DNA of 21,408 nt from a virus. How positions within the stretch are numbered: position 1 is the stretch's first letter; every line of letters starts with the position of its first letter. The stretch covers positions 1 to 21,408 of the IMG/VR virus record IMGVR_UViG_3300025671_000644; one strand, written 5' to 3'. Shown piece after piece: positions 14,120-20,985 of this stretch. A model generated the notes under the pieces. The model did no database searches. It saw only the letters and a program-made list of their open reading frames with translations, and was not told the origin of the DNA. Position numbers and translations under genes: made by a program.

Positions 14120-14150
14120 CAAAGATAAGCGTATTAAATCAATTCTACAA
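14120..14150 (-). promoter_or_regulatory. Promoter of the replication operon
   Basis: TATCTTTG (14127-14120) matches TAnnTTTG and TTG (14150-14148) lies exactly 20 bases upstream, just after the 70-residue gene. A start about 5 to 8 bases downstream would give a leader of about 120 bases holding the leader ORF and the terminator before the initiator ATG. Confidence 0.7.
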
Positions 14151-14378: not shown

Positions 14379-16553
14379 TTAGAAAAGTTTAGTTTGTAAT
14401 TCTGATTCAATAGCGAACTTGTGATTCTTCACATTAAGATTAAAGTAGCTTTCCTTCAACTCAATACTGATTGACTTTCTATTCATCTTAAGTGCCTGAT
14501 ATCCTTCTGAACCAATACCACCAAAAGGACTGAATACTGTTTCACCCTCATTGCTATACAAGTGTATTATCCTTTCGATAGTATCAAGTTGAAGAGGGCA
14601 AATGTGCTTTTCATCATTATTATCCTTTGCAGACCTGTATTGCAAAGTTCTGCTATAATTTACGTCCATCCAGACTGGACTTGCGTAATGCTGCCAAACA
14701 TCAACTGGCAAATAGTCTGGCTTAGATGGATCTGTATCCTGATGAGTAATTGGTACTTTATTTTCACCCTCATTCCTAAAGAAAAGTACATAATCCGGAA
14801 TGCCAACACATGACATTGATGAATCCTTCTTAATGGTCTTGTGTAAAAGCCCTAATGATTTGGTTCTTTGCATCTGAGTTACTGGATTCTTCCAAATTGT
14901 AACTCTTGAATGGTAAATAAAGCCCTCGACTGAGAACATATTCTGGATAATTCCAGAGAAGTCTCTTAGCCCAATAACTCCATCCAAGCTTTTACGCAAA
15001 GGCAAATCCATGCAATGAACTGCGCATATTCTTCCAGGCTTCAGTATTCTTTTTAATTGCGGAATTAAGTATGAGAAATGAGTCTTAAACATCTCATAAT
15101 TTGAGACATTACCCATATCTTTTGGATTGTCAGAATACACATACAGCTCTGCAAATGGAGGGCTGAACACAATCAAATCGACTGAATTATCCTCAATCTC
15201 AGCTGACCTTTCTACACAATCCCCATTCATCAATAAATACTTATCTGACTTCACAGTATCAGATTCAATCTTCGCCTTAAACTTATCAAGAGAAGTGTAG
15301 TCTGCCTGAGATGAATACTTACTCATTTCTTCAATCATTTCTTTGTGATTTTTTTGTTTTTGTAAAATTGATTGCCTTACATTTTTTTGGCTCTCTGGAA
15401 TCATTATATGTACATTTACATTCTCTGATTGGCCAAATCTGTATGAGCGCCTTACGGCTTGATAAAACTGCTCAAACTTAAAGTCATAGGAGCAAAATAC
15501 CATGTTGTGACAATTTTGGAAATTCATTCCAAAGCTGGCAATACTTGTCTTTGTGATTAAAACCTTAAATTCTCCTTTGGCAAATCCATTCAATTTATCC
15601 GCCTTAAATTCTGGAGTGTCGCTACCTTTTACGTTAACTGAATCATTTATCTTTTTTGCAAGAAGTTCCGATTCAGTATTTCTTAGTGTCCATATGATCC
15701 ACTGTTTATCTGAAGAATTTACAAGGTTGGCAGTTCTTTCCACTCTTTCATTCATAGACCTATTTAGGTCTTTATGTAGATCAGTAGCAGATACGGCAAC
15801 ATCAGCAAATAAGGAGCCGGTATTATTTTGGACTGGAATAATATGTTCAATGTAGTTTATTTTAGGTAAATCATAACCACATTGAGATTCATCAATTCTT
15901 TTTGGATTATCAAGTGACATAGAAAATGTGCAAATGTATTTCCAGAAGTCATCCTTTGCATGTTTCCTAAGCCTCCATTTCTGTGTCTCACCACCATCAT
16001 GAACAAAGAACATCGCAAGCATTTCAGCGTATGTCATTGTTCCCAAAAACTCACTATGCTGGCCAAGTTCCATGTGGTCATTTGGCGATGGTGTTGCGGT
16101 ACATGCAAGCTTATATTTGTAGTTCCTAAATGAATCTATAATAAGAGATGCCATTTTGCCATTACCCTTCAATATACTTGATTCATCTAATACAACTCCT
16201 TTATATTGTGTTAAGTCGCAATTCTTTAATTGGTCGAAATTCACAACATCAATATTTGACAAATCAACACCAAACTTATTAGCCTCTGATTTAGTCTGCT
16301 GCACAACTGACAAAGGTGCCAATATTAAAACCTTCGATTGAGTATGTCTTGAAACATGATATGCCCATTCAAGCTGCATGAAAGTCTTTCCAAGTCCGCA
16401 ATCCATGAAAAGAGCAAATCTACCTTTCTTAAGCGCTATTTTTACAGCATACTTTTGCCAATCAAATAAATTGTCATTCAATTCATTTACCTCAAATCCA
16501 GTATCTATCTGAATCCTTTTCTTAGAATTTATAAATTGATTATAATCTTTCAT
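14379..16553 (-). CDS. SF2 (SNF2-like) helicase fused to a DNA methyltransferase
   Basis: From the ATG at 16553 this has 724 residues. The N-terminal half is a superfamily 2 motor: CGLGKT (52-57), LDESS (122-126), TATPSPND (152-159), and motif VI QAVRRSYRFGQ (365-375). The C-terminal part is an N6-adenine/N4-cytosine methyltransferase with motif IV FSPPF (463-467) before motif I SPFGGIGSEG (675-684), an order typical of the beta class. It probably modifies phage DNA; no partner endonuclease is visible here. The protein ends QTKLF, which fits the Qxx[LIM]F sliding-clamp motif. The frame is open to 16679, but that part overlaps the exonuclease gene. The gene is clearly AT-rich (15361-15420 has 17 G/C of 60, against 30 of 60 at 16741-16800 in the exonuclease), suggesting later acquisition. 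Confidence 0.92.
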   Translation of the reverse strand: MKDYNQFINSKKRIQIDTGFEVNELNDNLFDWQKYAVKIALKKGRFALFMDCGLGKTFMQLEWAYHVSRHTQSKVLILAPLSVVQQTKSEANKFGVDLSNIDVVNFDQLKNCDLTQYKGVVLDESSILKGNGKMASLIIDSFRNYKYKLACTATPSPNDHMELGQHSEFLGTMTYAEMLAMFFVHDGGETQKWRLRKHAKDDFWKYICTFSMSLDNPKRIDESQCGYDLPKINYIEHIIPVQNNTGSLFADVAVSATDLHKDLNRSMNERVERTANLVNSSDKQWIIWTLRNTESELLAKKINDSVNVKGSDTPEFKADKLNGFAKGEFKVLITKTSIASFGMNFQNCHNMVFCSYDFKFEQFYQAVRRSYRFGQSENVNVHIMIPESQKNVRQSILQKQKNHKEMIEEMSKYSSQADYTSLDKFKAKIESDTVKSDKYLLMNGDCVERSAEIEDNSVDLIVFSPPFAELYVYSDNPKDMGNVSNYEMFKTHFSYLIPQLKRILKPGRICAVHCMDLPLRKSLDGVIGLRDFSGIIQNMFSVEGFIYHSRVTIWKNPVTQMQRTKSLGLLHKTIKKDSSMSCVGIPDYVLFFRNEGENKVPITHQDTDPSKPDYLPVDVWQHYASPVWMDVNYSRTLQYRSAKDNNDEKHICPLQLDTIERIIHLYSNEGETVFSPFGGIGSEGYQALKMNRKSISIELKESYFNLNVKNHKFAIESELQTKLF

Positions 16554-16558
16554 AGTCT

Positions 16559-17473
16559 TTACTTTATGAGGAACCGACGTGAGCCAGCAACCTCGGTGAG
16601 ATAATCGTTGTATAAATCTTGATTCTCGGTCTTGAATCGCTTCGCGTCGAACTTCTGCGAAGCTCTTGCAGCCTTCCAAGTAATTACAGGCTTCCCATCA
16701 TACAAGACCGCCTCACAGTCGCGCATGGTCATCTGAATCTGCGCCTTGAGTTCTTCCTTGCGAGATTTGAGGGCCTTTTCTTCGGCGGCAATATCTTGAA
16801 GCTCTTCGACCACGTCCATCACCTCCTGAGTTGCCAGCATTGATTTACCATCTTTGTGAGTCGGATGTTTTGAAAGCACATCGGCCACATTAACCAAAGG
16901 CGGCTCCTGGTCGGTAAGTACATGATTCAGCCAGAAGTTGTCAGCCTGTTCAGCCATGTACAAGAAATATTCCTCATTGAAGTCAATCTCAAGGTAACCA
17001 AAAAAGACACCTCTGGTTAACCAAGCCACCGCGCCCTTTTTGACTCCACAGATCCCCAACTGCCATTGAAGCTGAGAGAACCAGGTCAGCGGCAACTCAT
17101 CCGGGTCAACTTCCATCTGGGTACTCTTGCATTCAAGAATCCGACGCTCTCCATCGACCAAGTAAAAGCGGTCGGGACTCGCGGAGTAATAGTGCTTCTC
17201 AGAGTGGAACTGCACAGACATCTCATCGCTGCCCGGCTCGATTGGCCAGCCTGTTTCCTCTTCGAACATTTGGGCAATGATTGGCTCAAGAAGATGCCCA
17301 GCTCGCGTAAACTCGTTACCCTCGAAGGGTTCGGTGCGGCCTGTCTTAAGTAGCCACAAGTCTCGGGGAGTCTGATACTTGTTAAGTCCGAGAATCGTGC
17401 TGATCTCGGATGACCCAATGGAGCCCTTCCGGGCTTCCATGTGTTGGTCAATAGTTTCGAATGTTTGTTTCAT
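16559..17473 (-). CDS. YqaJ/lambda-type exonuclease (viral recombinase)
   Basis: This nuclease chews one strand from double-stranded ends to expose 3' single strands for the annealase. It has 304 residues. The nuclease core is in the N-terminal 200: IGSSE (19-23), LEP with E63, SPDRF with D101, LECKS with E114 and K116, and the QLQWQL helix with Q134 and Q138. The C-terminal 100 residues hold a coiled-coil-like Glu/Lys stretch (AAEEKALKSRKEELKAQIQ). RecT lies two genes upstream, the standard exonuclease-annealase pair. The next gene, the helicase-methyltransferase, starts five bases downstream. Confidence 0.93.
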   Translation of the reverse strand: MKQTFETIDQHMEARKGSIGSSEISTILGLNKYQTPRDLWLLKTGRTEPFEGNEFTRAGHLLEPIIAQMFEEETGWPIEPGSDEMSVQFHSEKHYYSASPDRFYLVDGERRILECKSTQMEVDPDELPLTWFSQLQWQLGICGVKKGAVAWLTRGVFFGYLEIDFNEEYFLYMAEQADNFWLNHVLTDQEPPLVNVADVLSKHPTHKDGKSMLATQEVMDVVEELQDIAAEEKALKSRKEELKAQIQMTMRDCEAVLYDGKPVITWKAARASQKFDAKRFKTENQDLYNDYLTEVAGSRRFLIK

Positions 17474-18556: not shown

Positions 18557-18820
18557 TTAATGTGTAAGTAAATCGTGATAAGTTTCTCCAAGTTCGCTCA
18601 ATGTGTGGTAAGTCTTTGGATCTCCCCACTCATTAAAGATGGCTGTCCCGTCGTTTAAGAAACCGATATGTTCAAAGAACACTTTTGGTTCGGCTTTTTC
18701 GTTGATTCGTTCGGCAACTTCAAAAGGCCGCAGATATTCGTGATCAACTATTACTCCGCTGCGGTAGTAGTCGATCACGAAAAAGTTTTTAGTAGTTCGC
18801 GTTTTCTTTTCAATACTCAT
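18557..18820 (-). CDS. Hypothetical protein, 87 residues
   Basis: No family is recognised. It begins MSIEKKTRTTKNFFVIDYYR, with an aromatic-rich beta-like first half and EWGDPKTYHTLSELGETYHD near the end. No cysteine and no membrane segment are present. It overlaps the regulator gene upstream by 11 bases and precedes recT by 13 bases, so all three probably share the promoter at 19032-19062. Confidence 0.68.
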   Translation of the reverse strand: MSIEKKTRTTKNFFVIDYYRSGVIVDHEYLRPFEVAERINEKAEPKVFFEHIGFLNDGTAIFNEWGDPKTYHTLSELGETYHDLLTH

Positions 18821-19004
18821 GGTTTTTAATTTTAGAGGCTTCGATGCCTCGGATTACAAGATAGCGGATGTGCTCACTCAGCGTATAACTATCCGCTTTA
18901 GACTTAATTTGAAGCTCGCGGAATCGCCTGTCCGCATCTTGCTCCAAGATTCTTTTAAGGGTAGGTGATACCCTCAAACAAATCATTTCTTTCTTATCCC
19001 TCAT
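18810..19004 (-). CDS. Small ribbon-helix-helix-like regulator
   Basis: From the ATG at 19004 it has 64 residues. It reads MRDKKEMICLRVSPTLKRIL, a first strand and helix, then TLSEHIRYLVIRGIEASK, a second helix, which together resemble the CopG/MetJ-type DNA-binding fold with an inserted basic stretch. The frame is open to 19055, but that part lies in the promoter. It is the first leftward gene from the divergent promoter region and would be in place to bind the 16-base palindrome at 19089-19104 and control itself and the rightward genes. The fold is judged by eye, and binding is an inference. Confidence 0.68.
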   Translation of the reverse strand: MRDKKEMICLRVSPTLKRILEQDADRRFRELQIKSKADSYTLSEHIRYLVIRGIEASKIKNHEY

Positions 19005-19031
19005 TGAAATTAGTTTGGTTAAGTAATGGCT

Positions 19032-19062
19032 CAAAGGTAAAACAAAGTAATACAAACCACAA
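19032..19062 (-). promoter_or_regulatory. Leftward divergent promoter
   Basis: TACCTTTG (19039-19032) with TTG (19062-19060) exactly 20 bases upstream, on the minus strand. It would drive the regulator, the 87-residue gene, recT and on. The upstream TTG is 26 bases from the palindrome at 19089. Confidence 0.75.
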
Positions 19063-19088
19063 GAAAAAAGTGATAACCGTGCAAAAAA

Positions 19089-19104
19089 TACCCTAAATAG
19101 GGTA
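19089..19104. promoter_or_regulatory. Central palindromic operator between divergent promoters
   Basis: TACCCTAAATAGGGTA is a perfect 7+7 inverted repeat around AA. Exactly 26 bases separate each edge from the -33 TTG of the promoter on that side, so the site is symmetric for both. A related copy stands at 20573-20588. A position about 70 bases before each start is more usual for an activator than for a simple blocking repressor. Confidence 0.68.
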
Positions 19105-19130
19105 ATTTCTCAATTTTTTTACAAAAACAC

Positions 19131-19161
19131 TTGCATGGTGTTTTACTTTGTATTACATTTG
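19131..19161 (+). promoter_or_regulatory. Rightward divergent promoter
   Basis: TTG (19131-19133), 20 bases, TACATTTG (19154-19161). The acidic-protein ATG follows 21 bases later. The region from the palindrome to the -7 box aligns with the copy at 20573-20645 with no length change. Confidence 0.78.
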
Positions 19162-19182
19162 TAAGACAGAAACAAAGAAGTC

Positions 19183-19851
19183 ATGGAAGTTACAAGCGAA
19201 ATTTACAAGGTGGAAGTAGGGCATGAAATCCTCGTGTTCGATGACCGTAGGGTTGTTGAAGAGTTGTATGAAGGCGAAAGCCGTGAAGATGCTCAGATAA
19301 CTTTTGATTCTTTCAACCCCGAAGATTACGGGGTTGAGGGGATTAATATAAAGATTGTTTGGAGGCGCGATGTTTATACAGTCAGCCCCAATCTGCAAGA
19401 AGGAGATTTAATCGAAGACTTTTTGTTGGATTTTCCAGTAGATGATTGCTGGTCAGATTCTGAATTTTACACCATCGTAGGCGATGAGCCTGAGATGGTG
19501 ACAGAGGAGAAAGAGTTTGGCGTTTATTACGCCAACATAAAAAGTGATGAGCTTCTCGAAAAAGTGAGCGCTCATTTTGACGTTCGGAAGTATAGGATCT
19601 TGAACGCAAACGGCCGCAAGATTCAACTCCGTATTGCGGATCATAGCGAGAATGCATCGAACATCGAAAAGTTTGAAGTTGAGGCTGACTACTACCTTAG
19701 CGTAGTAATTGCTGACGCGGATCAAATTACTGGGTCAAAAAAAGAATGGTTCGAGCTTGACCGGCCGGCCAACTCTGATCAGATATACTTTACCTCAGAG
19801 AATTCTGAGGAGGAGATAATCAAAGAAATTAATTCACTAATAAATCTTTAA
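19183..19851 (+). CDS. Acidic hypothetical protein
   Basis: This is a 222-residue protein of unknown family. By count it has 53 Asp/Glu against 21 Lys/Arg, a net charge near -32. It has no signal peptide and no membrane segment, and one cysteine. Strongly acidic early phage proteins are sometimes DNA mimics that block host DNA-binding enzymes, but the pattern here is spread out and mixed with beta-like stretches, so that is only a possibility. It begins MEVTSEIYKVEVGHEILVFD. It is the first rightward gene from the divergent promoters and ends three bases before the glucosaminidase ATG, so the two are co-transcribed. Confidence 0.78.
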   Translation: MEVTSEIYKVEVGHEILVFDDRRVVEELYEGESREDAQITFDSFNPEDYGVEGINIKIVWRRDVYTVSPNLQEGDLIEDFLLDFPVDDCWSDSEFYTIVGDEPEMVTEEKEFGVYYANIKSDELLEKVSAHFDVRKYRILNANGRKIQLRIADHSENASNIEKFEVEADYYLSVVIADADQITGSKKEWFELDRPANSDQIYFTSENSEEEIIKEINSLINL

Positions 19852-20540: not shown

Positions 20541-20571
20541 GCTCCGACCCTGACCAGGTCGGGGCTTTTTT
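20541..20571 (+). terminator. Intrinsic terminator after the glucosaminidase gene
   Basis: GCTCCGACC (20541-20549) pairs with GGTCGGGGC (20557-20565), 9 bp with one U-G pair and a 7-base loop, followed by six T (20566-20571). It ends two bases before the palindrome at 20573. Confidence 0.85.
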
Positions 20572-20572
20572 C

Positions 20573-20588
20573 TACCCCAAAAAGGGTA
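20573..20588. promoter_or_regulatory. Second copy of the palindromic operator
   Basis: TACCCCAAAAAGGGTA keeps the TACCC and GGGTA arms of the site at 19089-19104 and the same 16-base length; the inner bases differ. It lies exactly 26 bases before the next -33 TTG, the same spacing as at the divergent promoters. Confidence 0.6.
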
Positions 20589-20614
20589 ATTTTCAAAAAT
20601 AATTCACAAAAAAC

Positions 20615-20645
20615 TTGCGTATTGTTATACAGCGTATTACATTTG
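20615..20645 (+). promoter_or_regulatory. Promoter of the small acidic gene
   Basis: TTG (20615-20617), 20 bases, TACATTTG (20638-20645). The ATG follows 47 bases later. The -7 box and the preceding GTAT are identical to those of the promoter at 19131-19161. Confidence 0.78.
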
Positions 20646-20692
20646 TACTATCACAACGGCAATAACGCCACAACACCTAAATCATTCAAGCC

Positions 20693-20932
20693 ATGAACGC
20701 AGAAAAATTAGCAGGAAAGTTAAAGCAGACAGTTTTTGATTTTTTCGTTATCCGTTCACTCGTAGCATCGTGTGAAAAATACAATTACGGTTGCGCCTAT
20801 TTTACAGAAGACGAAGATGAAGCTAATGAGGTTTTTGAATATCTCGATTCAGAAAAAGACGCAACTGAGAGTTATGAAATTTGGTACAAAGTAGGTGATC
20901 AGATTTGGTCTTATAGCGAGCGTATAATTTAA
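20693..20932 (+). CDS. Small acidic hypothetical protein
   Basis: This is a 79-residue protein of unknown family, MNAEKLAGKLKQTVFDFFVI at the start and then an acidic stretch (FTEDEDEANEVFEYLDSEKDAT) and an aromatic end (YEIWYKVGDQIWSYSERII). It has two cysteines and no signal peptide. It has its own promoter, its own terminator and the upstream palindrome, so it is a single-gene unit under the same control as the acidic protein and glucosaminidase. That neat packaging is the main support for it being real. Confidence 0.75.
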   Translation: MNAEKLAGKLKQTVFDFFVIRSLVASCEKYNYGCAYFTEDEDEANEVFEYLDSEKDATESYEIWYKVGDQIWSYSERII

Positions 20933-20956
20933 GCAAGCACCCCAATCTTCTCTCAG

Positions 20957-20985
20957 AGCCTCGGCCCATCAGCCGGGGCTTTTTT
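20957..20985 (+). terminator. Intrinsic terminator after the small acidic gene
   Basis: AGCCTCGGC (20957-20965) pairs with GCCGGGGCT (20972-20980), 9 bp with one U-G pair and a 6-base loop, followed by five more T (20981-20985). It overlaps by two bases the stop codon of the converging minus-strand gene, whose own end shows no T run in its direction. Confidence 0.85.

Follow-up and report, generated by a model that had tools for sequence, protein, structure and literature searches.

Divergent promoters, palindromes and a third promoter unit

The window, which is the whole 21,408-nt stretch of viral DNA analysed here, contains two divergent units on either side of a palindrome (palindrome A), and a third unit with a second palindrome (palindrome B) further to the right (Table 1). 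The leftward operon encodes a 64-aa ribbon-helix-helix (RHH)-like protein, an 87-aa protein and RecT, while the rightward unit comprises the genes for a 222-aa protein and a glucosaminidase. Both divergent promoters are of the Bacteroidota type (TTG-N20-TACMTTTG), and the phage host probably belongs to the Bacteroidota. The housekeeping consensus of these bacteria has TTTG near -33 and TAnnTTTG at -7 (PMC7366714, PMC9723704), and starts were predicted on the basis that the -7 box spans -12 to -5 (PMC9723704). The third promoter, absent from an earlier sequence-only reading of the same DNA, leaves 47 nt between its TACATTTG box and the start codon (ATG) of a gene for a 79-aa protein. All three promoters have a TAnnTTTG box at -7, a TTG around -33 and a spacer of about 20 nt, which are the boxes and usual spacing of Bacteroidota sigma-ABfr promoters (PMC7366714, PMC9723704), but the phage promoters add two fixed elements, an upstream palindrome and a tandem repeat inside the spacer.

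Table 1. Features of the three promoter units and the gene cassette, in window coordinates.
Feature	Position	Strand	Remark
64-aa RHH-like protein	18810-19004	-	Candidate repressor of the tandem-repeat operators (layout and low-confidence model)
Leftward promoter, TTG-N20-TACCTTTG	19032-19062	-	RHH-87aa-RecT operon; predicted start near 19027
Tandem repeat GTATTAC-TTT-GTTTTAC, leftward promoter	19037-19053	-	Overlaps -7 box; candidate RHH operator
Palindrome A, TACCCTAAATAGGGTA	19089-19104		Predicted dimeric-regulator site
Rightward promoter, TTG-N20-TACATTTG	19131-19161	+	222-aa protein and glucosaminidase genes; predicted start near 19166
Tandem repeat GTTTTAC-TTT-GTATTAC, rightward promoter	19140-19156	+	Overlaps -7 box; candidate RHH operator
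222-aa protein	19183-19851	+	First gene of rightward unit
Cassette (palindrome B, promoter, 79-aa protein gene, own terminator)	20572-20985	+	Absent as a unit in L163
Palindrome B, TACCCCAAAAAGGGTA	20573-20588		26 nt upstream of third TTG; identical in L154
Third promoter, TTG-N20-TACATTTG	20615-20645	+	Ahead of 79-aa protein gene; predicted start near 20650
Tandem repeat GTTATAC-AGC-GTATTAC, third promoter	20624-20640	+	
79-aa protein	20693-20932	+	Cassette cargo

Palindrome A has the arms TACCCTA and TAGGGTA around a central AA. Exactly 26 nt separate it both from the TTG of the leftward promoter (19062-19060, minus strand) and from that of the rightward promoter (19131-19133, plus strand), confirming the geometry described in the sequence-only reading. 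The same reading had placed the site about 70 bases from each start, and a real, conserved, promoter-linked element was found there, centred at about -69.5 relative to either predicted start. Taken by itself the palindrome carries only modest weight: among dinucleotide-shuffled versions of the intergenic region, 11% contained a 7+7 palindrome, and 0.9% one with three G/C in each arm. Only 9 of 26 positions agree between the left and right linkers, and a recent inverted duplication therefore does not account for the two being equally long.

At palindrome B (TACCC-N6-GGGTA) the distance to its own TTG is also 26 nt, the value in all three module promoters of the window. The linker of B and the right linker of A are alike at 15 of 26 positions, and the equal spacing of these two may therefore be inherited. 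Two other likely promoters, on the minus strand at 14150 and 10346, contain neither the palindrome nor the tandem repeat. No diverging promoter was found at palindrome B, where the unit at 20573-20645 has a single promoter, and in the related phage L163 the two spacings differ (25 and 26 nt), indicating that left-right symmetry is not required. The recurring feature is the palindrome-to-TTG distance, and the significance that the sequence-only reading had attached to the exact symmetry as such was not borne out.

Conservation in related phages and the 79-aa gene cassette

Two independent intergenic comparisons were available, L163 for palindrome A and L154 for palindrome B; further relatives were sought through RecT, and the two contigs obtained stop short of the intergenic region. 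L163 encodes a 222-aa protein homologue with 77% identity at the protein level. The 68 nt between the divergent TTGs are 94% identical between the window and L163 (three substitutions and one indel), in contrast to 62% (186/301) at the four-fold sites of five neighbouring genes (Fisher p = 2e-8), and it is this whole 68-nt core that is conserved, not the palindrome by itself. Among A, B, L163 and L154 the palindromes vary in the centre but not in the arms; that of L163 has one changed centre base (TACCCTAATTAGGGTA). Comparison of the spacing in relatives, as proposed in the sequence-only reading, gave a divided answer: the palindrome is kept, at 25 nt on the left and 26 nt on the right in L163 and at 26 nt in L154, but strict equality fails by one base. 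The spacing is thus held tightly, not absolutely.

Module B of L154 (73 nt) is 97% identical to that of the window, with both changes at the junction of the repeat units. A scan of viral sequences showed that true modules are confined to the group of the window (L005, L143/L163 and L154), and the remaining matches look like chance. These comparisons show that a conserved promoter module is present in three copies in the window.

The third copy lies in a cassette flanked by CGGGGCTTTTTT repeats at 20560-20571 and 20974-20985, an arrangement also found in L154, while L163 has one CGGGGCTTTTTT copy and no insert at this locus. The cassette has its own promoter and terminator, and relatives either have all of it or lack it entirely. 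Its clean absence from L163, together with the 97% identity of module B in L154, indicates that it is moron-like and that the palindrome was carried along with it. Phage morons are likewise extra genes with their own promoter and terminator, cleanly absent in a relative, but here the cassette promoter bears the control module of the phage itself. A search in annotated phages gave no match to the 79-aa protein, and a search of genomes for the 222-aa protein gave none either.

L154 and L162 form one 26.2-kb contig, which has the endolysin and cassette region in common with the window. Its terminase (phrog_6681 in L154, phrog_38 in the window), portal and head families are unlike those of the window, indicating that these phages are mosaic.

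Tandem repeats inside the promoters

Inspection of the spacers revealed a tandem repeat, GT[AT][AT]TAC-N3-GT[AT][AT]TAC, in all three promoters, which had escaped the sequence-only reading. The repeat always starts 9 nt from the first base of TTG, and its second unit extends into the -7 box. The 21.4 kb contain exactly three such repeats, one in each module promoter, and none appeared in 200 shuffles. Each unit approximates two-fold symmetry (GTA-T-TAC), and the 10-bp period places both units on the same face of the helix.

The RHH repressors MetJ, Arc, CopG and Omega act on tandem sites, and units 10 bp apart on one helix face are what side-by-side RHH dimers would be expected to use. The window resembles these systems in having a small RHH-like protein and short, helically phased tandem sites that overlap the promoter of its own gene; the differences are that the period here is 10 bp, that the 64-aa protein matches no RHH profile and that the repeat is a candidate operator only. 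The 64-aa protein resembles RHH proteins in its sequence pattern. Its structural model contains helices at residues 14-35 and 42-62 and an unpaired N-terminus (pLDDT 67.5). Pfam, NCBIfam and PDB gave no match, Foldseek gave no useful match to the model and nothing was found in the annotated phages searched; in the absence of a match to a curated RHH profile or structure, the protein is termed RHH-like only. Apl of phage 186, which acts between pR and pL, likewise has direct repeats one helical turn apart at divergent phage promoters, but it belongs to a different protein family, and the repeats of the window lie inside the promoters (PMC7498355).

In two unrelated phages, L023 and L051, two to three 10-bp GTWTTAC units were found upstream of operons with small RHH-like proteins, the one in L023 matching Pfam RHH_9 with an E value of 9e-4, which falls short of the Pfam cut-off. 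However, a recognised RHH gene is missing beside the repeat in most phages that have triple GTWTTAC repeats, and the link between repeat and RHH-like gene in other phages is suggestive only. Tandem GTWTTAC with a 10-bp period was also seen in L057, L227, L242, L243 and others, so that with L023 and L051 several phage kinds are represented; some of them have a small RHH-like gene alongside, and this type of operator is possibly widespread.

Candidate regulators of the two sites

The palindrome and the tandem repeat are probably two separate control sites and candidate targets of two different proteins. The likeliest division of labour, to which we assign a probability of roughly 55%, is that a putative activator uses the palindrome and the RHH-like protein the tandem repeats. 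The module would read, in order, TACCC-N6-GGGTA, 26 nt, the -33 TTG, 6 nt, and GTWWTAC-N3-GTWTTAC running into the -7 box. A dimeric, probably activating regulator would bind the palindrome at about -69.5, a usual position for activators touching RNA polymerase from upstream, and would contact the polymerase from there; owing to its two-fold symmetry, one site can serve both divergent promoters. RHH dimers lying side by side on the tandem repeats would cover the spacer and the -7 box, repressing all three units, including the operon of the RHH-like protein itself. The palindrome lies at a fixed distance upstream of the -33 element (26 nt in the three promoters of the window, 25 nt in one relative), as in class I activation by CRP at -61.5 in E. 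coli, where a palindromic site also lies at a fixed distance upstream of -35, but the phage site is at about -69.5 and its activation is putative (PMC6301791).

The regulator of the palindrome could be encoded by the phage outside the fragment or by a narrow group of hosts. The proteins scanned in the window, which is an incomplete fragment, included no clear HTH regulator. In a sample of 198 genomes from the phylum of G004, the exact palindrome TACCCTANNTAGGGTA was found in none of the 197 other genomes, which makes a phylum-wide host regulator unlikely; a narrow host regulator is possible. A scan of genomes with the module gave 58 matches, mainly in Bacteroidota and mainly intergenic, with spacings spread over 23-29 nt and no peak at 26, arguing against a general 26-nt rule. 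In nine loci (L173, L181, L183, L185, L193, L207, L211, L215 and L218) TACCC-N6-GGGTA lies 23-25 nt upstream of Bacteroidota promoters. Their palindromes are mostly TACCCT-N4-AGGGTA, and several precede TonB-receptor-like genes in Cytophagales-type genomes; this set is perhaps a separate host regulon.

Other roles for the palindrome were considered. It is unlikely, though it deserves attention, that it is the operator of a CI/XRE-type repressor, silencing by looping, cooperative binding or blocking of the upstream polymerase contact. Such a repressor stays in play because in L018, an unrelated phage, the identical 16-mer separates a gene for an XRE-like protein, which it directly precedes, from a divergently oriented gene; in L172, TACCCCATACGGGGTA-26-TTG-N20-TACCTTTG was found upstream of a gene with an XRE-like look. 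However, both matches may be coincidence, no CI/XRE-type gene was found in the window, and -69.5 is an unusual site for simple repression.

The sequence-only reading had named the RHH-like protein as the obvious candidate for binding the palindrome and controlling both divergent promoters from there, and the RHH gene does adjoin the palindrome, both being conserved together in L163. RHH repressors, however, as a rule bind over the promoter and not as far upstream as -70, and a tandem repeat typical of RHH binding is present in exactly the same three promoters, making this assignment less likely; we regard it as improbable, and the tandem repeat, judged from its sequence, as the better candidate operator.

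The chances are also poor that no protein binds the palindrome, which would then be inherited sequence of duplicated promoters, any activity coming from an A/T-rich upstream element. The A/T-rich linkers, the partial likeness between the right linker of A and that of B and the frequency of 7+7 palindromes in shuffles are consistent with this, but the left and right linkers differ and yet are equal in length, and the arms stay fixed in all four palindromes despite the varying centre. A weak transcription terminator or insulator is very improbable: a promoter scan marked palindrome A as terminator-like on the minus strand, where its hairpin has -10.3 kcal/mol (z -2.8), but the palindrome is upstream of both divergent starts and so is covered by neither transcript, and for palindrome B, preceded by a strong terminator (-17.3 kcal/mol), folding was on a par with shuffled sequence (z -0.1).

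An SOS/LexA box was rejected, as the palindrome matches neither of the motifs reported for Bacteroidetes LexA, GGA-N5-TCC and CTAA-N5-TTAG (PMC8565304). Since the palindrome is found again beside a lone promoter, an origin of replication is disfavoured.

Under the favoured division of labour, the third module copy would move with its small cargo gene and bring that gene under the same control. It is a tentative idea, and rather doubtful at present, that the two-layer module of fixed-distance activator site and RHH spacer operator has been copied onto cargo cassettes so that gained genes join the phage programme, and, equally tentatively, the genes of such cassettes would thereby not be independently expressed morons. 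Little is known of gene control in Bacteroidota phages, and the proposal, if right, would describe a two-site control module with exact geometry and a mobile gene cassette bearing the control module of its own phage. The wider interest is moderate, as divergent phage promoters with both activator and repressor sites are well known.

Elsewhere in the window, the protein encoded at 14379-16679 combines a SNF2-type helicase with N6/N4 DNA methylase domains (phrog_16, PF01555).
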